A stretch of 64,000 nucleotides of DNA, taken from NCBI RefSeq assembly GCF_022387135.1, contig NZ_CP092462.1, positions 2,604,001 through 2,668,000 on the forward strand. The letters run 5' to 3'. Within the stretch, counting starts at the first letter, position 1. Every line of letters starts with the position of its first letter. This DNA is from Comamonas sp. B21-038. Its GTDB lineage: Bacteria > Pseudomonadota > Gammaproteobacteria > Burkholderiales > Burkholderiaceae_C. Below, piece after piece: positions 10,674-24,569 of this stretch. The notes under the pieces were generated by a model. The model was not told the DNA's origin. It ran no database searches and was given only the letters and a program-made list of their open reading frames with translations. A program made the translations under genes and the position numbers.

Positions 10674-11021
10674 CTAGGCCTTGGCCCGCTTCTTCTCTTC
10701 AGCCTCACGCTCTTCCATCCAGATGGACAGAACTTCAGCCTCGATCACCCGGATGCCGTCAAACAGGTCTTGATGCTCGTCTGGCGGCAAGCCCATGCGG
10801 TCGAGTCGGTAGAACAGCACGTTGTAGTCCAGAGCATAGGCACCGACTGCGCCAGCACGCCACTGGTTGCGGATTTGCTCCCAGAGGCTCCAAACTGGCT
10901 CAGTCTCCGGCCAGAGCAGCACGATGTCTTTCGCATAGTCTGACCGTTTCATGCCGAAGGCCGCCATCTCTGCATCGCTGGGCGGCGCTTCGTACTTCGC
11001 CCGGGCTACGCTTCGGAGTTT
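10674..11021 (-). CDS. Tail assembly chaperone extension (GT-type, made by -1 frameshift)
   Basis: This 115-codon frame has no convincing start of its own and overlaps the end of the upstream chaperone gene. It is entered by a -1 shift at the heptamer GGGAAAC (11018-11024), giving a fusion of about 241 residues. The content (about 10 acidic residues followed by helices, a WPETEPVWSLW segment and a lysine-rich end) fits the DUF1799 type of tail assembly chaperone that follows gpG-like proteins. In lambda the G and GT products recruit tail tube protein to the tape measure. Independent initiation at an internal ATG is possible but would give a much shorter protein. Confidence 0.75.
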   Translation of the reverse strand, partial: KLRSVARAKYEAPPSDAEMAAFGMKRSDYAKDIVLLWPETEPVWSLWEQIRNQWRAGAVGAYALDYNVLFYRLDRMGLPPDEHQDLFDGIRVIEAEVLSIWMEEREAEEKKRAKA

Positions 11022-11398
11022 CCCAGGTAGCCCTCGGTGCAAGCTGCACGGTAGGCGCCCCACAGCGCGGCGCCGGCGGCTGGCTCTTCGTTGAAAAGCT
11101 GCGCCAGGTTGTCCTGGGTCAGCTCGATGTCCTCCAGATTCCAGCCTTTGAGGAATTCCAGTGCCCGGGCAGCATTGGATGCCATGCCCTTGACGGCCAG
11201 GCTCTCAAAGGTGATCTTCTCGCCGTCCGTGCCGACTTCTGGCTTGGCCTCGGCGTTCTCATCCAGGAACTTGGCAAACTCCTGGCGGGTGCGGTATTTG
11301 AACTGGCAAGAGACCTTGGCCTTCTCGCCGCTCATCAGCGGGATGTCAACGAATGCGGTGATGGTTTCGGGGCGCTTGCCCAGTACGATTTTTGCCAT
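11006..11398 (-). CDS. Tail assembly chaperone (gpG-like)
   Basis: A 130-residue protein between the tail tube and tape measure genes, which is the fixed position of the lambda gpG chaperone. It has a beta-rich N-terminal half, an Ala/Glu-rich helical centre and an acidic C-terminal helix. It ends five codons after a GGGAAAC slippery sequence, so a fraction of ribosomes should shift and add the downstream frame. The short product keeps tape measure protein soluble during tail assembly in lambda; the same job is inferred here. Confidence 0.8.
   Translation of the reverse strand: MAKIVLGKRPETITAFVDIPLMSGEKAKVSCQFKYRTRQEFAKFLDENAEAKPEVGTDGEKITFESLAVKGMASNAARALEFLKGWNLEDIELTQDNLAQLFNEEPAAGAALWGAYRAACTEGYLGNSEA
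11018..11024 (-). other. Programmed -1 frameshift heptamer GGGAAAC
   Basis: Read on the minus strand in the frame of the upstream gene the site is G GGA AAC, the standard X XXY YYZ form. Both tRNAs can re-pair one base back on GGG AAA. The zero-frame stop TAG lies only four codons beyond AAC (11006-11008), and the -1 frame stays open to 10674. Lambda uses GGGAAAG at the equivalent place. Confidence 0.8.
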
Positions 11399-11438
11399 GA
11401 TGTGTTCTTTTCAGTGGAGAGGAAAGATAAAGCCCGTG

Positions 11439-11478
11439 CCCAGCCGCCCGCCCCACTGAAAGGAGCGAAGCGGCTGGG
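11439..11478. other. Inverted repeat between tail tube and chaperone genes
   Basis: CCCAGCCGC (11439-11447) and GCGGCTGGG (11470-11478) form a perfect 9-bp stem with a 22-base loop in the 100-base gap 11399-11501. It has no U-tract, so it may be an mRNA-stabilising or processing structure rather than a terminator. Confidence 0.45.
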
Positions 11479-11501
11479 TCGGTGCAGAGGGTTGATGCCG
11501 C

Positions 11502-12143
11502 TTAGTAGCGGACTGGGCGACCGTTCAGGGAGAAAGTCGCAGTCACCTGCATCACTTGGCCCTTGGACAGGGTTGGGGTCTCGTTGAACGAAACGTAGCC
11601 GTTGTAGAGGATCGCCGATCCATCGGGCAGAGTTACTTTCAGCGCGCGAATGTCGCGGCGTTCACCTGCGAGCTTGAGCGCCTGGTAACCGGCCAGGGTT
11701 GGGTCATCACCAATGCCCAGGGTGATGGACTGGGCGCTGGTCACAGTCGGCAACTGGCGCTCGAAGTCGTCTTCCAGGAATGAGCCCGTCCAGAACTGCT
11801 GATCACCGCCAGAGGTCTGGAAGTCCAGAATCTGGGAGATCTGCGTCCAGGCCGTGATCTCGCGCAATGTGCTGCCGGTGGGGCCTGCAGGGAAGCGGTT
11901 CAGATCGGTAGTGTCAGCACCAACCATTTCGAGCGAATTGGCCGCGACATTGCCCGCCTTCCAGATACGCTCACTGACCTTTTGCCAAGGCGTCTTGAAC
12001 TCGAAAAACGAGTTGTTGGGCACTCCGTGCGCCGCCGAGGTCAGCACCGCAGGGTTTGCGTTGGAGATGGCCGTCACGGACTTGACGGCGCCGTAAGCGG
12101 TAGCGATTGCGACGGTCGAGCCGTCAGGGAGACGAATAGCCAT
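11502..12143 (-). CDS. Major tail tube protein
   Basis: The ATG at 12143 has a GAAAGG ribosome site seven bases upstream; longer in-frame extensions enter a terminator-like region. The 213-residue product is beta-rich with a long polar loop and an SKGQVMQVTATFSLNG C-terminal strand typical of lambda gpV-like and HK97-like tail tube subunits. It lies between the tail terminator-like DUF3168 gene and the gpG-like chaperone, as expected for tail tube genes of long non-contractile tails. It should form the hexameric rings of the tail. Confidence 0.8.
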   Translation of the reverse strand: MAIRLPDGSTVAIATAYGAVKSVTAISNANPAVLTSAAHGVPNNSFFEFKTPWQKVSERIWKAGNVAANSLEMVGADTTDLNRFPAGPTGSTLREITAWTQISQILDFQTSGGDQQFWTGSFLEDDFERQLPTVTSAQSITLGIGDDPTLAGYQALKLAGERRDIRALKVTLPDGSAILYNGYVSFNETPTLSKGQVMQVTATFSLNGRPVRY

Positions 12144-12216
12144 AATTGGGCCTTTCAAGAACGAAAAATCCCGCTCGGCCATTGCTTTGCGGGTGGGATC
12201 AGCCCATGACGGGCAC

Positions 12217-12236
12217 AAAAAACCGGCCTAAGCCGG
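12217..12236 (-). terminator. Terminator-like hairpin upstream of tail tube gene
   Basis: CCGGC - TTAG - GCCGG followed by six T residues on the minus strand, in the gap between the DUF3168 gene (ends 12252) and the tail tube ATG (12143). Confidence 0.6.
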
Positions 12237-12251
12237 AGTCTGGGTGGGTTG

Positions 12252-12605
12252 CTATCGCTTCCCGGTTATGGAGTAAGACTGCAGGTAGCCTGCAACGTCG
12301 TCCGCATCATCAAGCGCGGTAATGGGCTCGGACAATGGACTGGCGGCAAACTTGTCGGTCGCTGCCAGCACGGCGGCCTGAGCGGCCTGCAGGAGCCGCA
12401 GCGCATCCAGGCCGGTGCTGTCATAGGCATTGATCTGGATCTGCGCATTGCGCTTGTCTCCCTGGTTGTTGTCCAAGAAGATGATCGGATCGCCGCCGAG
12501 GTGCTGCCAGGTGATGTATTGCCCCTTGGTGCCCGATGGCGCAACGCGCATGAACACCTGGGGGCAAACCGTCTTCAAGACGGCCTGCAGATCAATTTCA
12601 AGCAC
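12252..12605 (-). CDS. DUF3168-type tail completion / tail terminator protein
   Basis: This 117-residue protein has the layout of the DUF3168 family, small head-tail or tail-end proteins of siphophages. It has an N-terminal amphipathic helix, a PSGTKGQYITW strand region, a conserved DNNQGDKRNAQIQI strand and a long C-terminal helix. Family members cap the tail tube and bind the head connector. It lies three bases after the HK97 gp10-like gene and before the tail tube gene, in the standard order. Confidence 0.75.
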   Translation of the reverse strand: MLEIDLQAVLKTVCPQVFMRVAPSGTKGQYITWQHLGGDPIIFLDNNQGDKRNAQIQINAYDSTGLDALRLLQAAQAAVLAATDKFAASPLSEPITALDDADDVAGYLQSYSITGKR

Positions 12606-12608
12606 TTT

Positions 12609-13205
12609 TTACCCCTTCCTGATGCGTGCGATAAGCGTCTCTTGCGCCGCAGCCAAGGCCGCCGGCATGGCGCTCGATGCGCTGCGCATGAACGCGGTCG
12701 CAGGATGCTGCTTAGGGCCGCCTGGCCGCAGAACGTAATAGGCATCCTTCTCTGCAAGCGATGCCCGGCGTTTGGGTTTGGGCGTGCCAACCTTTTCAGG
12801 TCGAACAAGCGTCACCCATTGCCCTCGCTTGTTTGTGATGGCGACATACCGCTGCGTCCAGCCGTACTCAAGCAGGTGGCCATGCGGCGCCTTCTTGTGG
12901 TTCCAGCTGATGTGATATTCGGCGCGATGGCCAGTCTTGGACTTCTCCGGGCTGAAGGCCTGGTAGATAGACCGGTCCAGATTGCCAGTCACCTTACCGA
13001 TGCCCTGCACGTTGAGCTTCACACGGTCGTACACCACCTGGGCCGCCGCTTGCGCAGCTGGCCGAATGGCTTCCTTCACCCCATCATCGAGCTGCTGCAA
13101 ATATTGCTTTAGCCCGGAGGTGTCCAAATCCATGGAGAAGGTGTTGCGCCCGCCAAGTTTGCGCTGACCGTTGCGGCTGAGCGTTGTATCGCTACGGCGC
13201 ACCAT
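12609..13205 (-). CDS. HK97 gp10-like head-tail joining protein
   Basis: A 198-residue protein whose central part (HLLEYGWTQRYVAITNK, and the later AFMRSA) matches the HK97 gp10 family, where residues around HLLEYG and PATAFMRSA are conserved. It is rich in Lys and Arg, as usual for connector proteins contacting DNA or the portal complex. The ATG at 13205 comes one base after the preceding stop; an ATG at 13133 is an alternative start without a better ribosome site. It should join head and tail during assembly. Confidence 0.75.
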   Translation of the reverse strand: MVRRSDTTLSRNGQRKLGGRNTFSMDLDTSGLKQYLQQLDDGVKEAIRPAAQAAAQVVYDRVKLNVQGIGKVTGNLDRSIYQAFSPEKSKTGHRAEYHISWNHKKAPHGHLLEYGWTQRYVAITNKRGQWVTLVRPEKVGTPKPKRRASLAEKDAYYVLRPGGPKQHPATAFMRSASSAMPAALAAAQETLIARIRKG

Positions 13206-13206
13206 G

Positions 13207-13527
13207 TCACACCACCAGTTTGCATGACAGATCAGTGAACTTGCGATCCAGGCCTGGCAACACCGCCTCAATGTCGTAGTTCTGGCCCAGGTGGACCATA
13301 CGCATGCCAGCGTTGACATCGGTTCGCCAGCGGATGCGCGCCGAGGCCTTGACCACCGAGGTGTCAGCGCCTGAGCGAATGGACTCAACGCCGGACGGGT
13401 GCCGCACATAAGCCCAGAGGGTGGCGAAGTCCTCCCATGCCTCAGGCAAGGGCTCACCCACCTCGTTAGCACCGCCAGTGCGGCGCTGGATCGTAACGCG
13501 GTCGCGAAGTTGGCCAATGGTTGTCAT
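13207..13527 (-). CDS. Head closure / head-tail adaptor protein
   Basis: The 106-residue product starts at 13527, where a GAGGAA ribosome site is well placed; in-frame sequence upstream lies inside the previous gene. It reads as a SPP1 gp16-like head closure protein: an N-terminal RDRVTIQRR strand, a central WEDFATLWAYVR strand, and a C-terminal pair of strands with GQNYDIEAV. These proteins plug the connector after DNA packaging. The neighbours (gp6-like connector upstream, gp10-like downstream) give the canonical order. Confidence 0.8.
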   Translation of the reverse strand: MTTIGQLRDRVTIQRRTGGANEVGEPLPEAWEDFATLWAYVRHPSGVESIRSGADTSVVKASARIRWRTDVNAGMRMVHLGQNYDIEAVLPGLDRKFTDLSCKLVV

Positions 13528-13534
13528 CGATTCC

Positions 13535-13885
13535 TCACGCAATAGTGGGTTTTCGCAACGAATACAGCAAGGCCGTAGCACCTCGGGGAAGTGGGTATCC
13601 ATGGCCGGTTTTCACCGCCTGCTCCATCGATCCGTCTCGGTCCTCATAGAACCATCCCACAGTGAGCAAAATGGCCTGCTGCACCCGGCGAGCGCCGCGA
13701 ACAACCTGGCCATCCTCTCCCGTTTTAGGCTCTCCATCCGCATCAAACAGATCACTCGCAGGAACGCTGATGTAATCCAACACCGCATCCGTGGCCGCAT
13801 CAATCTTCATATGCAGGTCAGCATCATCATCGTTTGTGTCGCTGCGCAAATGCTCTCGAGCCTGGGTTATCGTTATGATTTCCAT
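13535..13885 (-). CDS. Head-tail connector protein (gp6-like)
   Basis: A 116-residue, mainly helical acidic protein. The phrases ITQAREHLRSD and VQQAILLTVGWFYEDRDG are the two halves of the phage gp6-like head-tail connector family, which forms a ring below the portal. A GGGAGG ribosome site precedes the ATG at 13885; a TTG two codons earlier is in frame but less well placed. The gene starts three bases before the collagen-like gene ends. Confidence 0.85.
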   Translation of the reverse strand: MEIITITQAREHLRSDTNDDDADLHMKIDAATDAVLDYISVPASDLFDADGEPKTGEDGQVVRGARRVQQAILLTVGWFYEDRDGSMEQAVKTGHGYPLPRGATALLYSLRKPTIA

Positions 13886-13887
13886 CG

Positions 13888-14655
13888 TCAACCTCCCAGC
13901 TTGACTGGTGCTGATTTGTCGACTCCATCTCGCCCGTCTCGGCCATCACGCCCCTTCTTGACAGCCAGCGCCCATGCATCCTCATCGGTGCCGGGCTTGG
14001 CGGTCACTGCATCGTGCTTGGCGTGCCAGAGGCTGCCGCCGAAAGTCACACAGTCGCCTTTGTCGTAGCTCTTGGCCTCGGAGTAAATCCCCTGATAGAC
14101 CATGTGCGAGAGCTTGACGGCATGGGTGTACTTCCATGCATCGCCTTCGCGCTGGAACAGAATCTTGAGAGTCCGGCCATCGGCCTGCATCTCAAATGCC
14201 GCGTCTTCTAGCTGGAAGGCATCCAGTCCATCAGCGCCATTCTTGCCATCCGCACCATCGCGCCCGTCGCGTCCATCCTTGGGTATAGGCATCTTGGCAA
14301 TGGCTGCATCCAGCTTGTCGGCTGCTCGGCGCTCGAAATCCAGTTCCCACCGGGCCATCTTCTCGCTCAGCAGCGCGTCGGCGTCCTCGATGGTGAAGCT
14401 CCTGCCATCCACCCCATCCTTTCCGGGCTGGCCATCCTTACCATCTAGGCCGTCACGCCCATCTGTACCGGGTTCACCGTCCTTGCCGTCACGCCCGTCA
14501 GCTCCATCCTTGCCATCTCGGCCAGGTTGGCCAGGCTCTGCAGCCTTGGTGCGCAGCTCCTCCAGCGCTTTGAGGCGTTGAAGCACAGGCGCAAGGGACT
14601 CGGCTACCACCAGGGAGACCACCTCCGCGATTGAATCAAGTTGTTTTGTGTTCAT
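13888..14655 (-). CDS. Collagen-like Gly-X-Y phage protein with a C-terminal binding-module-like domain
   Basis: This 255-residue protein starts with a helical segment (1-38) that could trimerise. A Gly-X-Y tract at about 42-85 is dominated by GKDG, GRDG and GEPG units. A charged helix (87-124), a second Gly-X-Y tract (126-147) and a third short one near 235-248 follow. Between the last two tracts lies a domain with a YSEAKSYDKGDCVTFGGSLW segment that resembles small carbohydrate-binding (CBM5/12-type) modules. Collagen-like triple helices with such modules are known from phage fibres. Its place between portal and connector suggests a head or neck decoration rather than a tail fibre. It overlaps the portal gene by 20 bases. 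Confidence 0.65.
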   Translation of the reverse strand: MNTKQLDSIAEVVSLVVAESLAPVLQRLKALEELRTKAAEPGQPGRDGKDGADGRDGKDGEPGTDGRDGLDGKDGQPGKDGVDGRSFTIEDADALLSEKMARWELDFERRAADKLDAAIAKMPIPKDGRDGRDGADGKNGADGLDAFQLEDAAFEMQADGRTLKILFQREGDAWKYTHAVKLSHMVYQGIYSEAKSYDKGDCVTFGGSLWHAKHDAVTAKPGTDEDAWALAVKKGRDGRDGRDGVDKSAPVKLGG

Positions 14656-16012
14656 GGGCGTTTGCCTTGCGAATGCGGTCAGCCAAGTAGGCGACCTGTT
14701 CAGGGGTTAGCCCCTTGTCCTCTTGAGGTGGTGGCGCCACAGGTGGCAGAGGCGCTGGAGTTGTCGTACCCTGGTCGATCCGGTTCAAACGCACCTGCTC
14801 CAGCGGATAGTCCTGCTGCTGCATGTACACCGTGTCGCCACCCTTCAATGGAGGCAAGTTCACGCGCTTGCGGGCGTTGTTCGGCGCCAGGATCCGGCCC
14901 TTCACACCTTCAGAGAGCGTTTCCATCAGGGTCTTGGAGTCCATCCGCATCAGGCCATCAATATCGACCTCGATACCCTGCTTGATGCCGTCAAACCCCA
15001 TGCCGTCATCCATTACTGCCTCAAACTCCTCAATAGGCGACTGCAGGCAATCCGAGTAATAGGCCCGATCCAGCGCTTCAATGTTGTTGTAGGCGGGCGT
15101 CTCCCCAACCCCGACCTTGTACCCAGGAACATGGAATACTGAGCAGATTCGCTCATCCGTCCAGCGCAGGGTTTCGATCAACTGAGAATCGCTTGCCGTC
15201 TGGGCCATGGGCTCAAACTTCATGCCTTCACCCAGCACCGCCACCTTGCCAGCGTTCGCGCCCGAATAGCCCGACTGCCATTGTTCCTTGATGGAAGCTG
15301 CGTTTTCCGGCGAAATCGTCCCGGGCGCAATCAGAATCCCGCTGGGCGTTGCGCTGTTGGCGAAGAACTGCATAGTGTTGTTTTGGATCTTCACCCCAAT
15401 GCCCGCAGCGATTGCCGCTGCATACAGGGGCGCGACACCCACCAGCGGGTGATACAGGCAATTCATGCGGTCGTGGATGATCGCCTCTGCCGGCGCAATC
15501 ACCCCCTGCTGCAGGCCCGCCAAATTGTCTTGGCCAAGCTGGTAGAAAACCGTGCCGTCATCGGACACCAAAGGCGTCACCATGTCGGGGTTGAGTATGT
15601 AGATACTCTCAATCTCCCCCTTGGCATTGAGCTGCTTGAGGCCATAGGCGTTGCCCTTGGTCAGCTTGGAGGTCTGCCACCACTGCTTGAATTGCACCTG
15701 GTTCTGGTAGCGGTTCGGGCGGCGCAGCAGGCGATTGATCGCGTTGGCCGACTGATCTTCTGTCCAGATGCCATCTTTGTCACACACCACCTTGCGTGCG
15801 CGCAGCTTGCCGAAGTCGTTGGAAATCCGGGTCACACAGGCATACACGATGGGGGAAGAAAGCACATCCTCTTGGCTCAGCGCCTGATTGCGTTGCCAGG
15901 CGCCAGCAAACGATTCTTTGATGATCGAGCGCCATCCACCACTACCGCTATGCACAGGCGCTGCCGATGGACTCGCCGCCTTCGTGATTGCTGACGCCAG
16001 TGTTTTAGCCAT
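14636..16012 (-). CDS. Portal protein, HK97 family
   Basis: A 458-residue protein with the known portal landmarks: the SSPIVYACVTRISND helix near residue 55, a WWQTSKLTKGNAY segment, the PLVGVAPLYAA helix, and a long helix followed by a Pro/Gln-rich C-terminus. Portals form the dodecameric DNA channel at one capsid vertex. The ATG at 16012 is preferred; a GTG one codon earlier is possible. The start overlaps the small membrane-protein gene by eight bases. The C-terminal tail (PAPLPPVAPPPQ) is unusually proline-rich. Confidence 0.93.
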   Translation of the reverse strand: MAKTLASAITKAASPSAAPVHSGSGGWRSIIKESFAGAWQRNQALSQEDVLSSPIVYACVTRISNDFGKLRARKVVCDKDGIWTEDQSANAINRLLRRPNRYQNQVQFKQWWQTSKLTKGNAYGLKQLNAKGEIESIYILNPDMVTPLVSDDGTVFYQLGQDNLAGLQQGVIAPAEAIIHDRMNCLYHPLVGVAPLYAAAIAAGIGVKIQNNTMQFFANSATPSGILIAPGTISPENAASIKEQWQSGYSGANAGKVAVLGEGMKFEPMAQTASDSQLIETLRWTDERICSVFHVPGYKVGVGETPAYNNIEALDRAYYSDCLQSPIEEFEAVMDDGMGFDGIKQGIEVDIDGLMRMDSKTLMETLSEGVKGRILAPNNARKRVNLPPLKGGDTVYMQQQDYPLEQVRLNRIDQGTTTPAPLPPVAPPPQEDKGLTPEQVAYLADRIRKANAHEHKTT

Positions 16013-16214
16013 CACTCATCCCCTTCAACACGACAGCGCTGTAAAGCACCGCCAAAACACCGCCAGCAGCGCAGCCCAGGCCTACGCCGAACTGCATGCC
16101 CACGCCCACCGCGATCAGCGCGGCGCCGCCCACCGAGAACACCAGCAGCCAAAAGAATGCTGATACCAGGAGGGAGCCTAGGAAATTGGCCAACTTGGCG
16201 ATGCTCTGCTTCAT
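16005..16214 (-). CDS. Small two-helix membrane protein
   Basis: A 69-residue protein with two membrane segments, about 9-33 and 36-62, the second rich in Gly and Val. A GAGGAGG ribosome site precedes the ATG. It sits between a structural-module gene and the portal, overlapping the portal start. The function is unknown. A membrane protein at this place could act in superinfection exclusion or attach prohead assembly to the membrane; there is no direct evidence for either. Confidence 0.6.
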   Translation of the reverse strand: MKQSIAKLANFLGSLLVSAFFWLLVFSVGGAALIAVGVGMQFGVGLGCAAGGVLAVLYSAVVLKGMSDG

Positions 16215-16222
16215 GGGCCTCC

Positions 16223-16570
16223 TCAGTTGGCCAGAGCTGCATCGCGCAGTGCCGCGCGCACCTTGTCAGCCCCGGCGTTGTGGTGGACTTTGACACCGCG
16301 CTCCTTTGCCAAGGCATGCAGCGCTGCGGCATCCAGGCCGTCCAGCTCATCCATAGGGACAGAGGGTGGGGCCGCAGGGGCAGTGCCGTCCGGAGCCAGT
16401 GCGGGCTCTTGCGCAACAGGTGCAGTGGCTGCGGAAGGTGCAGGCGCTGGGGATGGAGCAGAGACGGCTTGCGCCTCATAGCGACCATGGCCCAGGAGCT
16501 GCAGCACTTCAGCTTCAGCGCGCGTCATGCGGCGCTCGCGGCCACTGTTGTAGGTGAATATCACATTCAT
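16223..16570 (-). CDS. Phage protein with Ala/Pro linker, unknown function (head region)
   Basis: The ATG at 16570 has an AGAGGA ribosome site. The 115-residue product has an N-terminal charged strand-helix part (1-36), a Pro/Ala-rich linker (37-74) and a C-terminal helical domain (75-113) with the LDALAALHALAKERGVK-like pattern of an LEM/SAP-type or Rho-N-like helix-extended-loop-helix. Such small domains bind nucleic acid in other proteins. It lies just after the major capsid gene, where head-completion or decoration genes are common. Confidence 0.5.
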   Translation of the reverse strand: MNVIFTYNSGRERRMTRAEAEVLQLLGHGRYEAQAVSAPSPAPAPSAATAPVAQEPALAPDGTAPAAPPSVPMDELDGLDAAALHALAKERGVKVHHNAGADKVRAALRDAALAN

Positions 16571-16590
16571 TGCGGATCCTCTTGTCTTGA

Positions 16591-16618
16591 AAAAGGGGGC
16601 TCCCATTAAGAAACCCCC
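16591..16618 (-). terminator. Terminator-like hairpin after the major capsid gene
   Basis: GGGGG (16614-16618) pairs with CCCCC (16595-16599 read on minus), followed by TTTTT on the minus strand. It lies between the capsid stop (16647) and the next ATG (16570). The 14-base loop makes the stem modest. Confidence 0.5.
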
Positions 16619-16646
16619 TATTGCCTGACCCCTGAGTTATGGCGCC

Positions 16647-18647
16647 TTATGGCGTTTCAGGCTGGCCCCACTTCACGCCGGTCAGCACCTGCACAGCGCC
16701 TGGGCGGCGCTTGGACCAGTTCAGCTCACGCTCTGCGCGGAATGCAACAGAGTTGGTCTGGAACATGGACACCAGTTCAGCAGGCGTTGGGGTCGTGCTG
16801 TCATGCGCTGGGTCGGTCTTCATCTCCAGCGATGCCTCGGTGGACATATCGACTTGGAAGCCGCCTTCGTCCGCGAAATACACGTCCTGGGCGTTGATCA
16901 GCGCCACCACACCCACAGGGGCGTAGTCGGAGACGATGGCAGGGAGGCCCTCGAAAATGCCACCGGTCATGGTCATGTCGGGGAATTCGCGGCCACCCAG
17001 CGCATTGCGCATCAGCGTCAGCGCCATGGCCGTCTCGCTACGCATCACCCACACACCAGCCGAAGGCACGTTGCCATCAGCCAGGAAGGCCGCAAAGACC
17101 TTCTGCACATCGGTGCGCACATCGGCAGCATCGTTGCCGCTGGAGGCAATGCCCGTCACGCCATTGGTGACAGAGGCAGGCGACACGCCAGCAACTGCAC
17201 CCTTGGTAGGCAGCAGGAAGTCGGTATCCATGCGCGATGCCAGGGCTGCAACCAGTTGATCGCGGATCATGGTGTCGGCTGGCAGACTGGCGCGCTTGAG
17301 CAGTTGATCGGTGATCACTGCGATGTTCGCCACCTTCAGGCGGGTCAGGGTTGCCGAACCGTAGCTGAACTTGGTCAGCGGCTTGGCCTTGCCCTCACCC
17401 ACCCAGTAGCCCTCACCGCCAGAGGTCTGGCCGATCAGGGGCACATCGAATGGAACAGTTCGCAGGGCAGGAATGCCACCCGTGCCGAACTTGCCCAGCA
17501 CGGTTGCAGGGCGCAAGAATTCCACGAAGTCACCGATCACACCACCTGGGGCAATCAGGTTGCCGCCCCACTCGGGAACACCGGTGCTGGCAGCCGGTAC
17601 AGCCGCTTTCACCAGGTCGATCACGCGGGGGTCGATGGCACCCTTCTGGCCTTCTGCAAGCTGCAGCGCGTAATGGGGGATGCCCTTGGACTGGTGCAGG
17701 ATACGGATGTACTGCGCCATGGCCAGTCCCTTTTCGGCATGGTTGTGCTTCACAGTGATGTGAGGCTGGCCAGCACCAGGGGTGCGCGAAGCTGCTGCAT
17801 CAGCAGTATTGCCACCGGCGACAGGCTTGGCGCTCTTGGCCAGGTCCTTGGCCATCACCTGCAGATCTTCCAGCTCGGTATCGATCGCCGAAATCTCCGC
17901 ATTCAGCGTGGTAAAGCGCTCGCGCTCGTCGGCGTCCTTGGTGCGGCCTTCGTCTGCGGCCTTGGTCTGGATAGACAGGCGCTCTGCTGCCAGTTCTTTG
18001 CGCTTGTCTTCCAGCGCCTTGATTTGATCTTGTACGTTCACGTTGTTGCCTCTCTGTGTTTGGGCGTAAAAAAACCCGCTTGGTGCGGGCTGCTTCTGGG
18101 TTCCCGAAACGCCGGGAGGTGCTTTGAACTTGTCAGGCGGTGTGCCAGACGCGGCGCGCTGTGACAGGTCCAGAGATTTGATGGCGGTAATGGTCGCCTC
18201 GGAGTTGGCCGGGATCGTGACGGCTGACAGCTCATGCCAATCCCAGCGCGTAAAGTGGATGCCGCCCGAGTCAAGGAAGGCATATTCCAGCGCGCGAAAG
18301 CCGATGGACAGGCCCCGCACCAGGCCGGACTTGATCGAGGCCCAGGCCTCATTCAAGCGCGCAACCATCTGGCTGGGCATGTCCGCAGTGGGCAGCGCCA
18401 GCTTGGCCTTGATCTCAATCCCCTCTGCCGTCACTTTGGCCGTCACGACTTGGCCAATAGGCTGGCTGCTGTCGTGCTGCCACAGCAGCGGGATCGGTAG
18501 CTTGAACTGCGCTCCCTGGGGGTCAACAATGTCCCCGTCCCGGTCGCTGCCAATGGTCGAGGCAATGCCCGTGATTTCCCGGGCATCCTCATCCACCGAC
18601 TTGACGCGCATGACGCCATAAATACGATCTGGCTGATTCATAAACAT
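16647..18647 (-). CDS. HK97-type prohead protease fused in frame to major capsid protein
   Basis: One open frame of 666 codons carries two proteins that most HK97-like phages encode separately. Residues 1 to about 165 are a serine-type prohead protease (S78): the DRDGDIVDPQGAQF segment, the LLWQHDSSQPIGQ motif with the catalytic His, and the GLSIGF motif with the catalytic Ser. Residues from about 203 on are the capsid subunit: a coiled-coil scaffolding (delta) domain at 205-272, then the HK97 fold with VPEWGGNLIAP and VWVMRSETAM motifs. The junction contains a terminator-like hairpin, a T7 run, a ribosome site and a GTG at 18041 that would begin a 464-residue capsid protein alone. The product may therefore be two proteins. 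Confidence 0.85.
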   Translation of the reverse strand: MFMNQPDRIYGVMRVKSVDEDAREITGIASTIGSDRDGDIVDPQGAQFKLPIPLLWQHDSSQPIGQVVTAKVTAEGIEIKAKLALPTADMPSQMVARLNEAWASIKSGLVRGLSIGFRALEYAFLDSGGIHFTRWDWHELSAVTIPANSEATITAIKSLDLSQRAASGTPPDKFKAPPGVSGTQKQPAPSGFFYAQTQRGNNVNVQDQIKALEDKRKELAAERLSIQTKAADEGRTKDADERERFTTLNAEISAIDTELEDLQVMAKDLAKSAKPVAGGNTADAAASRTPGAGQPHITVKHNHAEKGLAMAQYIRILHQSKGIPHYALQLAEGQKGAIDPRVIDLVKAAVPAASTGVPEWGGNLIAPGGVIGDFVEFLRPATVLGKFGTGGIPALRTVPFDVPLIGQTSGGEGYWVGEGKAKPLTKFSYGSATLTRLKVANIAVITDQLLKRASLPADTMIRDQLVAALASRMDTDFLLPTKGAVAGVSPASVTNGVTGIASSGNDAADVRTDVQKVFAAFLADGNVPSAGVWVMRSETAMALTLMRNALGGREFPDMTMTGGIFEGLPAIVSDYAPVGVVALINAQDVYFADEGGFQVDMSTEASLEMKTDPAHDSTTPTPAELVSMFQTNSVAFRAERELNWSKRRPGAVQVLTGVKWGQPETP
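18038..18089 (-). other. Protease/capsid junction: hairpin, T7 run, ribosome site and overlapping GTGA
   Basis: On the minus strand a stem CCCGC - ACCAA - GCGGG (18075-18089) is followed by seven T (18068-18074). The ribosome site AGAGAGG (18049-18055) comes next, and then GTG (18039-18041), the start of the capsid scaffolding domain. In the frame that would result from one fewer T, the protease ends at TGA (18038-18040), overlapping that GTG. This looks like an ordinary two-gene boundary converted to a fusion by one base. Confidence 0.75.
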
Positions 18648-18650
18648 TCC

Positions 18651-20351
18651 TCAGATGAAAAAGACTCCGTAGTTCTTTTCCGGTTCAGGCGGTAGGAGGA
18701 TGCGCCCCACGCCCATGATCAGGGACACTGCCCCGTCAATCTTGTTGTCATTGCCCTGCTTGATGGGTCTCACAATGTCGTCATTGCCAGGCAGGTACTT
18801 ACCAATGACGTTTGAGATGCACCAGGTCAGGATCGGATTGCCGTCATGGTGGAACCGCCCAGACGCAATAGCCGCCTCGATTTCCTTCATCGGGTCGGAC
18901 ATATTCATGTAGTTCTGGGTGATGGTGATGGGCGTGAGCCCTTCGTCATCCAGGTGGTGCCCCAAGTTGGTCGCTCCATGCGGATCCAGCGGAGCGCACT
19001 GCACGGGGTTGAGGCGGTTGGCCTCCTTGGCCTCCTCCAGAATCTCCCGGTAGTCGATCTCTGCACCATCGGTAGGGATCATCAATCCTGCATTCATCCA
19101 CTTTTGATAGCGCTCGGCCATACGCCGGTTGTCCATGTTGGCAATCGTGTCCTCGGGAACCCAGAACTTGGGAGCGACCGAGTAGTAATGCCGCTTGCCT
19201 GCAATGTCCCGCCAGAAAAGCCGCGCCATGCTGTTCATGTCCAGCTTGCGCGCCAGGTCGAATGCCAGCACACAAGACTGACCCTCGAACTGCTCCAGGG
19301 TCAGGGAGGTGTCTTTCGCCGCCTCCCACTGGGCCATATTGAAGAAACCCGCCTTTGCCGTCACCCACACGCCCAGATGCTTGGTCTTGAAGGTGTTGGT
19401 AAAGCGGGCCTGCTGTATGCCCCGGCGCTGCTGGCTCTCCAGGTACTCCTGATAGACCGACACGCCCATGTTCGGGTTGGCCTTGGCCAGCACCAGGGGA
19501 GATTTCCAATCGTCGCCTTCGTCAATGGTGAAGATCCACCCGAACAATTCATCATTCGGGACGGTTCCCTCCAGCATTTCGATCACTTCGCGGCGCTTGT
19601 CGTAGCACGGGCCCTCAATGTCGTAGCCTGCTGTCGTGATCATGAACATCAGCGGCTGTTTGCGCGCCCCCATGCCGGTCAGCATTGTGGTGTACAGCGC
19701 GTCAGAATCGTGTTCATGGTACTCATCCACGATGGCGCATGATGGGCTCGCACCGTCGCCAGGATCGCCAATGATCGGCTCGAACCGGCTGCCGTCGGCT
19801 GGCTTGTTCAGATTTGAAGCGTTTACCTCGATTCCCGCAGCCTCGACCAGCATCGGAGAGCGCTTGACCATCAGCCGGGCAGGCCGGAACACTTCCCAGG
19901 CCTGCTTTTCCGTGGTGGCACCTGAGTAGACCTCTGCGCCGAATTCGCCATCAGCGGCAAACATAGACAGGCCCACGCCAGCAGCAATCACGCTCTTGCC
20001 GTTCTTGCGGTTGACCTCCCAATAGCTCTCTCGGAAGCGGCGCATGCCGTCCTTCTTGCGCCTCCAGCCGAAGGTGCAAGCTATGCCGAACTTCTGCCAG
20101 GGCTCCAGGGTCACAAGCTGCCGCTTGAATGCCCATTCCCCCTTGGTGTGGGGAAGCAACTCGATAAAGGCGATTTTCTTGGCCGCTTCCTTCTCATCGA
20201 AGTAGTACGGGTAATCATCGCCCTTGCTGGCTTCCAGGTTGTCGAAATGTCGCTGGCAGGCCTGAACCACATAGCGGCAGGCCGGAAACTTCCCGGCGAT
20301 AACGTCCTTGGCCCACTTGTGCGCCAGCTCAATTGCGGGTTGTTTAGCCAT
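18651..20351 (-). CDS. Terminase large subunit
   Basis: This 566-residue DNA-packaging motor has an N-terminal ATPase and a C-terminal nuclease. The Walker A-type loop is at about residues 115-120 (RKNGKS) and the Walker B CAIVDE at 205-210. The nuclease part starts near 360 with the [14 protein letters not shown] strand carrying the first metal-binding Asp. The family is the HK97 / phage_terminase-1 group that works with P27-type small subunits and an HNH protein, all present here. It overlaps the small subunit by eight bases. Confidence 0.95.
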
Positions 20352-20820
20352 TGATCAACTCGGCAAACGGGTTGCCGCCTCCCTCTGGTGGCTTGCCGAT
20401 CAGGCGTTGACGGCTGGAAGGGTCCAGGCCCAGCATGCTGCCGTAGGTGGCCATCATTGCCGCCGCTTCCTTCAAAACCGTAGCTGCCGGGTTCTTGACC
20501 ACCCCGCCAGTCGCTCCAGCGACCGTCACTCCGTTGTTCTTGATCTCTTCCTGCGCCATGCGGAATTGGTCATAGGCGTTGCAGTAGACCTCCAGGTTCT
20601 GAATGTCAGTTGCCGCAAGCACACGCTCACGGCACAGCAGCGGGCAGACCGTGTCCCATAGCGCCCGACCGTTGTCGCCCATCCAGAACGGGCATTCCAC
20701 TGTCACGACCAGACCGAAATCAGGCTCATTGGTGTTCAATGCACGCTTGCCGGGGTTTCCCGCAAGCTGTTTCTTGGCCGTTGGTTTTGGGCGCCGGCCT
20801 GACCGCGTTGTTCCAGGCAT
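20344..20820 (-). CDS. Terminase small subunit, P27 family
   Basis: The ATG at 20820 has a GGAGGGG ribosome site. The 158-residue product shows the P27 small-terminase pattern: a basic N-terminus with [20 protein letters not shown], a WDTVCPLL helix, and a C-terminal [10 protein letters not shown] motif. The small subunit recognises the packaging site on viral DNA and loads the large subunit. The 209 bases upstream, up to the HNH gene, may contain that site. Confidence 0.9.
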
Positions 20821-20871
20821 AGCCCCTCCCCGGTTAAATCTCATATTTCGCGGGCGTAGAAATGTGACGAA

Positions 20872-20922
20872 CAGGTCGGTTTACGGTCGGATCGCCCCCG
20901 ACCTGACCTACTCCCCCCCCCC
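20872..20922. other. Candidate cos/packaging region between HNH nuclease and terminase genes
   Basis: The gap 20821-21029 contains an 8-bp inverted repeat CAGGTCGG (20872-20879) / CCGACCTG (20898-20905), a direct repeat CGGTCGG beside it, and a run of ten C residues (20913-20922). HK97-like phages with HNH nuclease and P27 small terminase usually carry their cos site next to these genes. This is a location guess, not a demonstrated site. Confidence 0.3.
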
Positions 20923-21029
20923 GTGTATGTCTGCCGGCTCACTTCGTTGAAGATGGCGCGTCACGCCTTTCACAGCCTCCACACGCGAACGAATGCATCC
21001 GGTCCATACCAAGGTAGCCACAGCCCTCT

Positions 21030-21392
21030 CTAACCTCTCCTGCCCCGCTTGATCGCTCTAAGCCGCTCCGCCTTGCTCTTCGCCTCATGGCATGAGAGGC
21101 ATAACCCTTGAACATTGCTTTCAATGTCTTCTCCCCCTTCCGAGAGAGGGATGATGTGATCGCGCTCAGTGGCCTCTGCCACACTCCCTTGCCGGGAGCA
21201 CTCGGCACACAGTGGCTCGGCGCTAAACAATCTTTCCCTCAGTCGTTGGAGTGTTCTGCCGGTGATCCGCTTTGTCGCATCTGACCTCTTCTCCCATTTG
21301 GGCTTCGGGTGTGCCGGGCATCTACCGCTACCATCAACCGAGAGCGCTTTGCATCCGGGCTGGGTGCAAGGCTTAGGCAGCTTCCTTGGCAT
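21030..21392 (-). CDS. HNH endonuclease
   Basis: A 120-residue nuclease with the full HNH layout: CTQPGCKAL near the N-terminus and a CAECSRQG zinc pair at about 61-64. The catalytic ERDHIIPLSEGG at 76-87 follows, then an SNVQGLCLSCHEAKS segment carrying the Asn, the second Cys pair and the final His. In HK97-type phages an HNH protein beside the terminase genes is needed for specific DNA cleavage during packaging; the same role is inferred here. Confidence 0.92.
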   Translation of the reverse strand: MPRKLPKPCTQPGCKALSVDGSGRCPAHPKPKWEKRSDATKRITGRTLQRLRERLFSAEPLCAECSRQGSVAEATERDHIIPLSEGGEDIESNVQGLCLSCHEAKSKAERLRAIKRGRRG

Positions 21393-21401
21393 CTCATCTC
21401 C

Positions 21402-21620
21402 TCAATCCTGCAGGTCCCATCCCTCTTGGGTCCGAGCAACTGCATCTACCTGGCGCAGCTGCCGAAACAGCCGGTTGCGCACACAGTAGGTGCAGACCAT
21501 TGCGGGTGCGCAGCCGCCGCCGTGCGGCCTACACGTCTTGTCATACCGGCCCGGCTTGCCTCGCTCTGCATATCCCTTGCGGTGTTCTTTACCGGAGGCG
21601 ATTGCTTTGTCCAGGCTCAT
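21402..21620 (-). CDS. Small phage protein with CxxC-like cysteines
   Basis: A 72-residue basic protein. The N-terminal MSLDKAIASGKEHRK pattern and the CRPHG...CTYCVRNR segment are like short phage proteins often found beside HNH or terminase genes. The cysteines and histidine could bind zinc. An AGGAGG ribosome site five bases before the ATG supports translation. No function is assigned. Confidence 0.65.
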   Translation of the reverse strand: MSLDKAIASGKEHRKGYAERGKPGRYDKTCRPHGGGCAPAMVCTYCVRNRLFRQLRQVDAVARTQEGWDLQD

Positions 21621-21632
21621 GTCCGCCTCCTG

Positions 21633-21890
21633 TCAGCGCGCCCCATAGCAGGTCAGCAGCGCTAAATCAAAGGTGTGCTTGCCTGTAGTACCGTCGCCAG
21701 CATCCCACCAGCACGTCACCTGATCCCCTGCTACATCCATCACGGTCATCTCCGGTCCACCGGATGCGAGCTGCACGCGGTTTCCAGGCCAGACCTTGGC
21801 CAACATAGGTGGGCGCTGCAACTTCACAAGGTCAGAAGCGAGGAATGCTCCGCTGCTCAGGCCCGTGCGACCATTGCTTGGGGCTGTCAA
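21633..21890 (-). CDS. DUF2158 / YodC-like small protein
   Basis: The part from about residue 29 (MLAKVWPGNRVQLASGG) to the end matches the short beta-barrel proteins of the DUF2158/YodC family, which carry a GDxVxLxSGGPxMTV pattern followed by a CxWW strand. The frame opens at a TTG at 21890 overlapping the stop of the membrane-protein gene upstream; an ATG at residue 29 would give a 57-residue protein closer to the family's normal size. The start is therefore uncertain. Function unknown; these proteins are common in phage accessory regions. Confidence 0.65.
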   Translation of the reverse strand: MTAPSNGRTGLSSGAFLASDLVKLQRPPMLAKVWPGNRVQLASGGPEMTVMDVAGDQVTCWWDAGDGTTGKHTFDLALLTCYGAR

Positions 21891-22027
21891 GGCTTACCCC
21901 CAAGGAACACAGCAGAGAGTGCAGCGAGCACTAAGCTCAGGCCACCGAGTACGGTCCGCTGGGAAGGCGTAATGTTGTGGGCTACACAGATCATCGTGAT
22001 CAAGCCGAAATACTGAACTGCGCTCAT
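21887..22027 (-). CDS. Very small membrane protein
   Basis: A 46-residue product with two short hydrophobic stretches (about 3-16 and 24-43). A GGAGAG ribosome site stands six bases before the ATG at 22027, and the stop overlaps the start of the DUF2158 gene. Size and coupling support a real gene; no family was recognised. Confidence 0.5.
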   Translation of the reverse strand: MSAVQYFGLITMICVAHNITPSQRTVLGGLSLVLAALSAVFLGGKP

Positions 22028-22091
22028 GGCTCTCTCCAAAATGAATGAGGCCAGCGCAATGGCTGGCTCCTGAATAGTTCGCCTCATCGGA

Positions 22092-22331
22092 CTACCCGGA
22101 CGGGCTGAGGATTGCCGCTCGCTCTTCAAGCACCCCTTGAGCTTGGCTCGGGTCCTTGTCGAAATCCAGACCACCATTGGTCAGCGCAACGATGTGGTCC
22201 AGCTGAGTCGCCAGGCTTACTCGCCCCTCGCGCTCACACATCACACACAAAGGGTTGGCCGCGAAGTGGCGATCCCTGAAGCGCAGCAGCCATCGGCCGC
22301 GTTTTCGCTCTGGCACAAGATGATTTGCCAT
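22092..22331 (-). pseudogene. C-terminally truncated HNH endonuclease
   Basis: The 79-codon frame begins as a good HNH protein: a basic N-terminus with RKRGRWLLRFRDRHF, the zinc pair CVMC at 29-32 and the catalytic DHIVALTNGG at 45-54, then DFDKDPSQAQG. Here a complete family member would have the second cysteine pair and final histidine (LCxxCHxxK). Instead the frame runs into an unrelated tail and stops. A one-base change after QAQG restores only a single cysteine. It is probably a decayed second HNH gene, though a short active form cannot be excluded. Confidence 0.6.
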
Positions 22332-22367
22332 ATAGAATTTCCAGAACTACCACCCCCAGGAGCCAGC

Positions 22368-22757
22368 TTGTTCCGCTACATCGCGCTTTCTCTAGCCCTC
22401 TTAATTCAAGGGCCTGCGCTCGCCAACCGAGCGTCCATCCCCTTCTCAGGCTATGAACTAGCAGAGGCTTTAGCTGAACTTCAAAAGGTAAATAAGGGGG
22501 TCGCGGCAGATCAATTTCAAGCTGGAGCAGCTTTCGGATACATGAGAGCAATGGCCGATGAACTTACAGCCCATGGCAGGATCTGCGTTCCAAAATCACG
22601 CACTTTGCTAGATCTTGCTGACGTTGTTTCCCGAGATCTGCGCTCTCGGCCGCAAGACCACTCCAAGAGTCTTTCTGCAAATGTTTTTGTTCTTCTAGCG
22701 CTGCATAAAGAATTCCCATGTGACGCTAAAGGACAGCCGGCCACAAAGCGGAATTGA
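22368..22757 (+). CDS. Secreted Rap1a/Tai-type immunity-like protein (moron candidate)
   Basis: This is the only plus-strand gene inside the leftward late/middle region. A TTG at 22368 with AGGAG six bases upstream gives a 129-residue protein with a signal peptide (about 1-18, cleavage after ALA). The mature part shows the Rap1a/Tai pattern: an FSGYELAEAL start, a GYMRAMAD helix with preceding Gly, a CVP loop, an LADVV helix, and a final LALHKEFPC. The two conserved cysteines fit a disulfide. Family members neutralise type VI secretion effectors in the periplasm (Serratia Rap1a, Tai4). The sequence is less GC-rich than neighbouring genes. It may protect the lysogen from competitors; that use is inferred. 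Confidence 0.7.
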   Translation: MFRYIALSLALLIQGPALANRASIPFSGYELAEALAELQKVNKGVAADQFQAGAAFGYMRAMADELTAHGRICVPKSRTLLDLADVVSRDLRSRPQDHSKSLSANVFVLLALHKEFPCDAKGQPATKRN

Positions 22758-22872
22758 CGGCACCCCGATACATTTCAATTTGTGCGAGTGCGAGCCTTCT
22801 GTACTGGAGTCTGAGTCTTGAGGGTTGCCAGTCTGCTACTGGTGTGAGTCTGTAGCCTGGGCTTGAGTGTCT

Positions 22873-23061
22873 TCAATCCCATTCTGCTCGCCTCGTCGCT
22901 GCGCCTTGGTATCCCAGCAGCTTGCGGTCGAACATCACAACCCAAGCAGCGCGCCTGGCTCCCACTGGACGCCGGTACAGCCATCTGCATGCTGTCAAGA
23001 CGAAGGCGCTGAATCGAGCAGCCAACACCGTGCGCTCATGCAGATACTGCTGGTCGGTCAT
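22873..23061 (-). CDS. Small basic phage protein, unknown function
   Basis: A 62-residue protein with an Arg/Trp-rich composition and a hydrophobic central stretch (about 15-26). An AGGAGAG ribosome site lies five bases upstream of the ATG, which is the main support for expression. No family recognised. Confidence 0.4.
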   Translation of the reverse strand: MTDQQYLHERTVLAARFSAFVLTACRWLYRRPVGARRAAWVVMFDRKLLGYQGAATRRAEWD

Positions 23062-23142
23062 CGCTCTCTCCTATCGGGTCGCAGGGGCTAGGCTCCAAGT
23101 GTGTAGGTCGCGTGTGCGGAGAGCCTGCCCTGCGGTAACTGG

Positions 23143-23403
23143 TTAGCGCTTGATCTCGGCCCCGATCTGGATTGCAAAGTGAGGCTCATCACCTCGAATG
23201 CTCTGCATGAAACCCATGATCCAATGGCCAAGTGAAATGAAATGCCCCATAGGGCCCCACTTCGTGGCAACCATCGGACCCATTGAGTCCACGTCACCAA
23301 TCCAACAAGGCACGCCATACATAGCGCCCTCATTGGTGAACCCTTGAGCGAGCGCCTCGCGCGCCGTCATGTAGTCGATCAGCCTTGCAATTCGCTCTTT
23401 CAT
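23143..23403 (-). CDS. Small phage protein, unknown function
   Basis: The ATG at 23403 has TTGGAG as ribosome site, so the 49-codon in-frame extension upstream, which overlaps a hairpin and the tRNA-like element, was not used. The 86-residue product is Met- and Gly-rich with a KERIARLIDYM N-terminal helix and a hydrophobic GHFISLGHWIMGFM segment. No family recognised. Confidence 0.5.
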   Translation of the reverse strand: MKERIARLIDYMTAREALAQGFTNEGAMYGVPCWIGDVDSMGPMVATKWGPMGHFISLGHWIMGFMQSIRGDEPHFAIQIGAEIKR

Positions 23404-23411
23404 TCGCTTGC

Positions 23412-23440
23412 TCCAAAAGAAAAGCCAGCACTTGGCTGGC
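23412..23440 (-). terminator. Strong terminator-like hairpin after the tRNA-like element
   Basis: GCCAGC - CAAGT - GCTGGC followed by TTTTCTTTT on the minus strand. It lies between the tRNA-like 3' end (23452) and the next ATG (23403), as if ending a short RNA transcript. Confidence 0.6.
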
Positions 23441-23451
23441 CTTGGAATAGT

Positions 23452-23550
23452 TGCTGTGCCCGGACTCGAACCGGGGAAGCACACACGCATTGGCTCCATT
23501 CGCCCCGTGCATCCTCTTGATATGGTCACCCTTCCACTCGGGCACACAGC
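23452..23550 (-). tRNA. Degenerate tRNA or tRNA-like element (possible class II)
   Basis: Read on the minus strand, the 3' part has a perfect T-arm (CCCGG - TTCGAGT - CCGGG) followed by CACAGCA. About 90 bases upstream GCTGTG can pair with CACAGC as an acceptor stem, and CCCGAGTGGAAGGG resembles the D-arm of tRNA-Ser/Leu. No acceptable anticodon stem-loop with a U33 could be folded by eye. The element is therefore either a decayed phage tRNA, a tRNA-mimic, or coincidence around a T-arm. A terminator-like hairpin follows it directly. Confidence 0.35.
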
Positions 23551-23686
23551 GTAAATGTCACCACATCAGACAACCCTCATGGGCTGGGGTTGCTGTTTGC
23601 TTCTTCAAGCACTGGGAAACTCTCAGTAGGAGATGCCGCACCTTCATACCGCTCGGGTGCGGGCCGCGCTTGCTGCAGCTGACATG

Positions 23687-23711
23687 AAAAAGCCCCGCAC
23701 TTGGCGAGGCT
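23687..23711 (-). terminator. Terminator-like hairpin after the 23739-23972 gene
   Basis: AGCCTCGC - CAAGT - GCGGGGCT followed by TTTT on the minus strand, 28 bases past the stop of the membrane-protein gene. The loop CAAGT is the same as in the hairpin at 23412-23440. Confidence 0.65.
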
Positions 23712-23738
23712 GGGTAGATGTTGGCTACAGCGCGGGAT

Positions 23739-23972
23739 CTATGCCTGCGGAAAAAATCCTCGGTAAATCCATCGCACAACGTACTTAAAAATGAGTGGCC
23801 CCAAGACTGAGGAAACTAACACCAAGAGAAATTTTGACCACTCAGGACTCTCCTCAAAACTGTATGCGTCACTAATAGCAAAACCAATCAGTACCAGCAA
23901 TGAAAGAATGCCAAAGACCCATACCACATGGTAAAGGCGCCACACTCCGAGTTCAAAGTTCTGTCTTGTCAT
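23739..23972 (-). CDS. Two-helix membrane protein, unknown function
   Basis: A 77-residue protein with membrane segments at about 15-36 and 47-66 joined by an acidic loop (SFEESPEW), and a short basic end. The start at 23972 is the first ATG in a plausible position, though its ribosome site is weak. Hairpin terminators flank the gene on both sides (23687-23711 and 24034-24057), so it looks like a separate transcription unit. Its function is unknown. Confidence 0.5.
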   Translation of the reverse strand: MTRQNFELGVWRLYHVVWVFGILSLLVLIGFAISDAYSFEESPEWSKFLLVLVSSVLGPLIFKYVVRWIYRGFFPQA

Positions 23973-24033
23973 GCAGCAAATGTAACACCTTGTCGCACAC
24001 CGGTGCCGCGTAAATGGATGCTCAGGCAGAAAC

Positions 24034-24057
24034 AAAAAGCGCCCCTGTTGGAGCGCT
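24034..24057 (-). terminator. Terminator-like hairpin between 24125 gene and membrane protein
   Basis: AGCGCTCC - AACA - GGGGCGCT followed by TTTT on the minus strand, 68 bases after the stop at 24125. The transcript of the gene pair 24125-24995 should end here unless antiterminated. Confidence 0.65.
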
Positions 24058-24124
24058 CAATCACTGAGCTTTAAAGACACCGCCGCCTCCTTCCAGGGAT
24101 GCCGCGATTCTTGTGCGTCTGCGC

Positions 24125-24568
24125 TCAATCGATGGGTAGGACGATACCACATCCATAGTGGGTAAACAAGCCCCCGCGAACTATTTTTGCAGCGACCTGC
24201 ACAATGGCTTCATTTCTTGATGCGCAGACCTCAGATTGCAGCCGCTCACCGGCCCGTTGCGCAATGCACCGAAAGCGCACTCCGTCTCGCTGGAAGTGCA
24301 TGACGGTCCAACCCTGAGCTGACAACCTGCGCACCACATGATTGGCGTTGATGGGGTTGTGCGCCGGCCGGATCTGGTTGCGGCGCCACTCGTTGCTGAC
24401 TTCCTCACGGCTGGGCCTACCCTTGAGATAGATCATCTTTTGGCAAATCGGGCACACGCTGTAGAGCAGTGACTCATCCCGGCAAATCTTGAAGCCGGGG
24501 TGCATGCACTGTTCGAGGATGTGCTCATTCACCAGCATCTCTTCAATGGATGGGTAAGGCCCTTGCAT
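24125..24568 (-). CDS. Phage protein with a possible zinc site, unknown function
   Basis: A 147-residue protein. The N-terminal part has CMHPGFKIC and a CPIC pair (about residues 21-42), which could form a treble-clef or ribbon zinc site. The C-terminal half is a strand-rich domain with VRFRCIAQRAGERL, ending in a Gly-rich strand. It starts two bases after the stop of the regulator-like gene upstream, so the two share a transcript. No family recognised. Confidence 0.5.
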   Translation of the reverse strand: MQGPYPSIEEMLVNEHILEQCMHPGFKICRDESLLYSVCPICQKMIYLKGRPSREEVSNEWRRNQIRPAHNPINANHVVRRLSAQGWTVMHFQRDGVRFRCIAQRAGERLQSEVCASRNEAIVQVAAKIVRGGLFTHYGCGIVLPID

Positions 24569-24569
24569 T

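Follow-up and report, generated by a model that had tools for sequence, protein, structure and literature searches.

A basic question of capsid assembly is how the right number of protease molecules is brought into the prohead without a separate scaffold protein. A prophage gene in Comamonas sp. B21-038 raises this question anew: within the 64,000-nucleotide stretch of DNA analyzed here (hereinafter the window), a single open frame of 666 codons on the minus strand (18647..16650, with its stop codon at 16649–16647) codes for both a prohead protease and a major capsid protein. If one such gene yielded two forms of the shell protein, one carrying the protease and one free of it, this would be a simple answer to the problem of protease dosing. 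The features of the locus, all on the minus strand, are as follows:

16647..18647, minus strand: fused gene for a prohead protease, a linker, a scaffold-like domain and an HK97-type capsid (ORF list, profiles, phrog_617)
18207..18647, minus strand: S78-type prohead protease domain, approximately residues 1–147 (Pfam, residue conservation, AlphaFold2)
18042..18206, minus strand: linker, residues 148–202, predicted to be disordered from pLDDT, containing both hairpins, the T run and the ribosome site
18102..18117, minus strand: hairpin 1, TCCCG-GCGTTT-CGGGA, conserved with compensatory changes (family alignment)
18073..18091, minus strand: hairpin 2, AGCCCGC-ACCAA-GCGGGTT, of terminator-like form and merging into the T run (terminator scan, synonymous draws)
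18068..18074, minus strand: T7 run, read TTT TTT T, kept in seven of the eight clusters with this type of joint and replaced by G4T6 in the eighth
18049..18055, minus strand: AGAGAGG, resembling a Shine-Dalgarno sequence and separated from the GTG by 7 nt (duplex of −6.5 kcal/mol)
18039..18041, minus strand: GTG, codon 203, proposed internal start of a free capsid protein (sequence, 16S duplex, conservation)
17778..18041, minus strand: helical scaffold-like (delta) domain, approximately residues 203–290, with approximate borders (NCBIfam, AlphaFold2)
16680..17441, minus strand: HK97-fold capsid domain, residues 403–656 by Pfam (Pfam, Foldseek)
16594..16619, minus strand: strong hairpin just past the stop of the capsid frame and leading into a T5 run (family scoring)

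The fused gene and its relatives

Profiles from Pfam, NCBIfam and PHROGs agree on the nature of the product, bearing out the first-pass annotation, which had read the frame as an S78 prohead protease joined to an HK97-type capsid protein. Peptidase_S78 (PF04586) matches residues 52–156 with 38.9 bits (cut-off 21), Phage_capsid (PF05065) scores 72.4 bits (cut-off 24.2), and the NCBIfam model major_cap_HK97 (TIGR01554) matches from residue 212 onwards with 52.7 (cut-off 27.5). The PHROGs family of fused major head proteins, phrog_617, likewise covers both domains, with residues 7–660 of the product matching positions 10–626 of the 626 in the profile (E 2.2e-154). The fusion protein scores 45.5 against TIGR01543 of NCBIfam, under the cut-off of 59, and 51.3 bits against NF045541 (prohead protease/major capsid fusion), whose curated cut-off of 525 is not reached. 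Across 25 sequences H58 and S114 are invariant and E139 nearly so; we take these to be the catalytic residues of the S78-type protease domain. In an AlphaFold2 model of the fusion protein made with 30 sequences (mean pLDDT 71, pTM 0.43), strands and a helix extend to about residue 147, and the capsid part resembles HK97-fold capsids (for HK97 itself, 1ohg, Foldseek gives E 1.2e-11). The best 50 of the 311 Foldseek matches at E ≤ 0.001 are capsids of phages, satellites or GTAs, including Bxb1 and HK97, and a sequence search of the PDB returned two matches, both capsid proteins, and no solved protease. Since the Foldseek matches listed and those in the PDB are capsids, the protease fold is assigned from Pfam and PHROGs.

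The capsid module is ordinary in content. The fused gene follows the large terminase gene (which ends at 18651), and two small ORFs and then the portal gene lie downstream, the same order as in Pseudomonas phage PAJU2. Further along the window, a collagen-like protein with Gly-x-x repeats is encoded between the portal and the head-tail adaptor (13888–14655, minus strand); in its C-terminal part it aligns with the end of a PHROG that carries the label portal protein. Two HNH-endonuclease-like ORFs (21030–21392 and 22092–22331, minus strand), the second of them short, lie upstream of the gene for the small terminase.

Relatives were drawn from genome contigs (6 loci), viral contigs, phage records and whole genomes at three ranks; at the limits set, 5 of 53 genomes from the genus, 7 of 399 from the family and 3 of 399 from the order gave matches, with the window's own genome counted each time. 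This yielded 370 loci, of which 236 have both domains in order and fall into 128 clusters by shared 12-mers. Left out were 132 loci without both domains (12 earlier ones and 120 from a pattern scan), as well as L065, with its domains on opposite strands, and L091, on account of its domain order. The pattern in question, GCGGGTTTTTTTAYGCC, occurs in at least 120 stretches of the viral contigs, and none of these 120 loci has both domains. L091 (Stenotrophomonas phage SOVA965) has its capsid annotated as two overlapping ORFs behind a separate protease.

The two domains are fused in frame in 109 of the 128 clusters and are separate genes in 19, a fused share that is biased upwards, with the query itself being fused and two viral scans having taken the best 80 only; as the clusters are related, counts across them are not independent. 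Switches between the fused and separate states number 15 on the capsid tree and 12 on the protease tree (FastTree, with many weak forks). In this sample of sequences the protease–capsid fusion is plainly common and, as the related phages show, an old, working arrangement.

This distribution tells against a reading on which the real pair is separate and coupled, the fusion stemming from a private one-base mutation or a miscounted T. The first-pass annotation had entertained both a single-base insertion and a sequencing error, and such a pair does have parallels in the 19 clusters with separate genes, in one of which (L080) the TGA of the protease overlaps the ATG of the capsid. It had also suggested looking for relatives with six T and separate genes at the joint. 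The eight clusters with this type of joint are, however, all fused, seven of them with T7 (the window, L003, L008, L216, L217, L300 and L313) and the eighth, L297, with G4T6, which has the same total length and keeps the frame. Relatives at 70 and 62% identity are also fused with T7. On the strength of these fused relatives we reject a recent frameshift and consider a private mutation or a miscount highly improbable. The accompanying remark that one T fewer would end the protease at a TGA overlapping the GTG is correct, as the base following the GTG (18041–18039) is an A, but it is no evidence for such a pair: a start codon followed by A always yields TGA in that frame. Moreover, when 2000 synonymous-codon draws were made for each of the eight loci, the minus-one-T frame stayed open up to this TGA with a printed share of 1.00.

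The proposed internal start and the two putative products of the gene

The elements that had been described at the joint, namely the CCCGC/GCGGG hairpin, the T7 run, AGAGAGG and a GTG at the domain border, are all present as claimed. In the AlphaFold2 model residues 148–203 have a pLDDT below 50 and a long helix begins at 205, followed by the capsid part, which places the GTG (codon 203) at the domain border, where the disordered linker ends. The ribosome site before it, at −6.5 kcal/mol, ranks fifth among the 41 in-frame ATG/GTG sites of the gene. Across the family an in-frame ATG or GTG lies within 6 codons of the expected start of the capsid domain in 108 of the 109 fused clusters, L316 being the one without. 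At the joint, base pairing with the 16S end reaches −5.3 kcal/mol or better in 71 of 78 fused clusters, as compared to 18.4% of 2169 other in-frame internal ATG/GTG codons, and the joint holds the best internal ribosome site in 27 of these 78, against 2.8 expected. The GG core of the site falls in different codon phases (40, 33 and 4 of 77), indicating that it is conserved as RNA and not as one peptide. Weak sites are seen in L003 (−3.0) and L008 (−3.2), both with the T7 joint, and in L039 (−0.4). Judged against synonymous codons, the ribosome site stands out weakly (p < 0.05 in 6 of 78, median 0.18). In openness the start region exceeds about 81% of other windows in the same genes, yet it is no more open than synonymous codons give (mean 0.50). 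One hallmark of a nested two-start gene, an in-frame internal start with a ribosome site, is found here.

Four features are observed, namely the open frame, a fusion and a start with ribosome site that are both conserved, and the conserved hairpin 1 discussed below; from these we infer a two-start gene from which the fusion and a free capsid protein are most likely both made. Initiation at the ATG at 18647 would give a protease–scaffold–capsid protein of 666 aa, and initiation at the in-frame GTG at 18041 the scaffold–capsid part alone, of 464 aa and probably in excess. As the scaffold and capsid domains would be common to both forms, the long form is predicted to co-assemble with the short one, carrying the protease into the prohead in a set dose. 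The protease would then remove the scaffold domains and probably free itself. The first-pass annotation had raised the idea that the protease might be dosed by being attached to a small minority of the capsid subunits. The conserved internal start lends this idea good support; of the other readings in that annotation, mutation and miscount do not hold up.

A polyprotein that lacks an internal start, with the fusion alone being translated and the protease cutting itself out, would also be compatible with the open frame and with a flexible linker between the domains, and the fusion of phage MD8 has been described as one gene for all three parts (PMC8508860). Yet every capsid subunit would then bear a protease, and the conserved start (108 of 109) and ribosome site (71 of 78) would be left unexplained. 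We deem such a polyprotein improbable; two products fit better.

Hairpins of the linker and the capsid segment

Hairpin 1, which the first-pass annotation did not mention, overlaps the codons for Pro-Pro-Gly-Val-Ser-Gly or equivalents, and lies 21–60 nt upstream of the start in the family (median 36 in 103 clusters) and 60 nt upstream in the window. The alignment used for scoring it was made by protein, not by structure, and allowed scoring in 121 of the 128 clusters, 104 of them fused and 17 with separate genes. At one stem pair these 121 have C-G in 70, G-C in 41, T-A in 3, T-G in 2, A-T in 2 and no pair in 3, with the amino acids changing along with it (mostly Pro/Gly, Ala/Ala, Thr/Val and Ser/Glu). 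The pair made of two third codon positions is formed in 101 of the 104 fused clusters, as against 41.9 (sd 4.9) expected from the codon usage of each gene, and the four inner pairs together in 96 of the 104, as against 33–34 on the same expectation. Both variable pairs have the highest mutual information among the 153 column pairs of the stretch, and the pair types at these two positions, unpaired included, change 15–16 and 28 times on the trees. When 240 codon windows were scanned in the same register, hairpin 1 came out best (z 13.4), with the next at 5.4. Pairing at the outermost position is poorly maintained (64 of 121). The hairpin is not specific to the fusion: the four inner pairs are also complete in six of the 17 clusters with separate genes, of which L004, L005, L080 and L081 have the same peptide and the other two are L012 and L294. 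Among the fused clusters with the four inner pairs are those of named phages of Escherichia, Salmonella and Pseudomonas (L087, L088, L089), and Rfam has no match to the joint up to E 1 (16000–19000, both strands). We present hairpin 1 as a candidate new RNA control element within a coding linker. A second, similar candidate hairpin, with the pattern GCC GCG NCN GGC, was seen by eye further upstream; in the window a possible small one with a similar GCG loop lies over the Ala-Ala-Ser-Gly codons GCC GCG TCT GGC (18144–18155, minus strand).

Hairpin 2 has the core CCCGC (18089–18085, minus strand), the loop ACCAA and GCGGG (18079–18075). Of the 15 Phe codons at this joint (two per cluster, except for L297 with a single one) all 15 are TTT, as compared to 31 of 156 Phe codons (about 20%, pooled) elsewhere in the same frames, and an equally good stem and T run arises in no more than 0.4% of synonymous-codon draws at each of the eight loci. 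These two results indicate that the hairpin 2–T7 element is kept as nucleic acid. Terminator-like matches in 8000–26000 number 17 against 15.0 expected, which is not above chance; it is the conservation, not the scan match, that argues for hairpin 2 being real. The T7 joint changes five times on the capsid tree and three times on the protease tree (both with many weak forks), and by sitting with different capsid lineages it looks like a recombining border. Second hairpins are also present before the protease stop in L004 (GCCC-TCAAGAA-GGGC) and L005 (GCCC-GCAA-GGGC), the former of which resembles a lambda boxB site. In L082 a terminator-like hairpin lies between the separate protease and capsid genes, with a T6 run beginning 25 nt before the capsid start.

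An intrinsic terminator is laid out as a GC-rich stem followed by a T run, and a slippage site as a hairpin directly before a homopolymer run; hairpin 2–T7 has both layouts. As a conditional terminator it might stop transcripts that lack ribosomes or antitermination, such that no capsid is made in the lysogen, and be read through in lytic growth. The terminator layout, the selection as nucleic acid and the similar hairpin between the separate genes of L082 speak for this, but the site lies within a translated stretch and is present in only 8 of the 109 fused clusters, and we hold the idea as a tentative one. Programmed transcriptional slippage would instead have one U lost in some transcripts, yielding a free protease that ends at the TGA, with full-length transcripts giving the fusion and both kinds giving capsid from the internal start. 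There is a model for it in an insertion sequence of Roseiflexus, where slippage at T5C5 is stimulated by a GC-rich nascent stem-loop directly 5′ of the T run (PMC5009743), as hairpin 2 directly precedes T7. The preservation of T7 in seven of eight clusters, the exclusive use of TTT and the rarity of such a stem and run among synonymous draws at all eight loci are also what slippage would lead one to expect. Against it, efficient slippage is given for runs of 9 (PMC5009743), the run here being of 7, L297 has G4T6, the overlapping stop is automatic, the signals are identical to those of an intrinsic terminator, and a +1 ribosomal shift on UUU-U would yield the same product. Slippage also cannot be the general explanation, since 101 of the 109 fused clusters are without the T7 joint. 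We regard it as unlikely, though somewhat less so than the polyprotein.

Under the two-start arrangement that we favor, hairpin 1 and, in its type of joint, hairpin 2–T7 may be taken as cis-acting adjusters of the ratio between the two forms. In a more specific version, hairpin 1 would be a new cis-acting element (a 4–5 bp stem with a GCG-type hexaloop) that determines, across the family, how many capsid subunits bear a protease relative to plain ones, with the T7 joint adding slippage to give the fusion, free protease and free capsid; we put this forward as a possibility of about the same standing as the conditional terminator. Our first guess is that the hairpins might delimit a capsid mRNA segment on its 5′ side, with the strong hairpin after the stop on its other side. 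A hairpin of −8 kcal/mol or better within 73 nt past the capsid stop is found in 91 of 104 scored fused clusters, as against 13% of base shuffles. The hairpins on both sides of the capsid segment suggest, without proving it, that the capsid mRNA may have ends or a stability of its own. A promoter scan of 8000–26000 for the sigma-70 type gave two matches, both on the plus strand, and hence does not support a promoter of this type for the capsid.

Relation to known systems

The fusion of a protease to a capsid protein is in itself nothing new. The closest described case, ORF003 of Pseudomonas phage PAJU2, is 50% identical over 98% of the length and is annotated as 'prohead protease fused capsid protein'. 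Like the window, PAJU2 (cluster L087) has the start with a ribosome site and hairpin 1; unlike in the window, its capsid start is not preceded by a run of six T or longer, and its annotation mentions no internal start. Protease and capsid are also fused in one gene in Arthrobacter phages of clusters AM, AU and AN (PMC5513430), and gp5 of Pseudomonas phage MD8 combines protease, scaffold and MCP (PMC8508860). The protease domain of MD8 is ClpP-like, in contrast to the S78 type of the window, pointing to a separate fusion. The available parts of these two papers mention no internal start for the Arthrobacter-phage and MD8 fusions (PMC5513430, PMC8508860). In Pseudomonas phage F10, a relative of MD8 (L371), the fusion gene (4387–6468) has a candidate start at codon 220 with AGGAG (−6.9 kcal/mol), which is only its second best in-frame site. 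In the open-access literature, as far as its text was available, we found no report of an internal start or of a covarying RNA hairpin in protease–capsid fusions; a paper on the AH14a prophage (PMC4936722) proved, in its available part, irrelevant to this family. What appears new here is the conserved two-start design and the covarying hairpin 1 upstream of the internal start.

In HK97, genes 4 and 5 place a protease beside a capsid protein with an N-terminal scaffold (delta) domain (PMC8508860), as in the window; HK97 uses two genes where the window has one, and the HK97 fold is common to both. In lambda, a single gene supplies both protease and scaffold (PMC8508860), and the proposed two-start fusion parallels these nested protease–scaffold genes. 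As is proposed for the window, the overlapping lambda genes C and Nu3 pair a long protease-bearing form with a plain short one; the short form is a scaffold in lambda, whereas in the window it would be scaffold plus major capsid protein. We take the C/Nu3 overlap to be in frame. The herpesviruses offer a further parallel to the two-start fusion, as UL26 and UL26.5 are likewise nested protease–scaffold genes.
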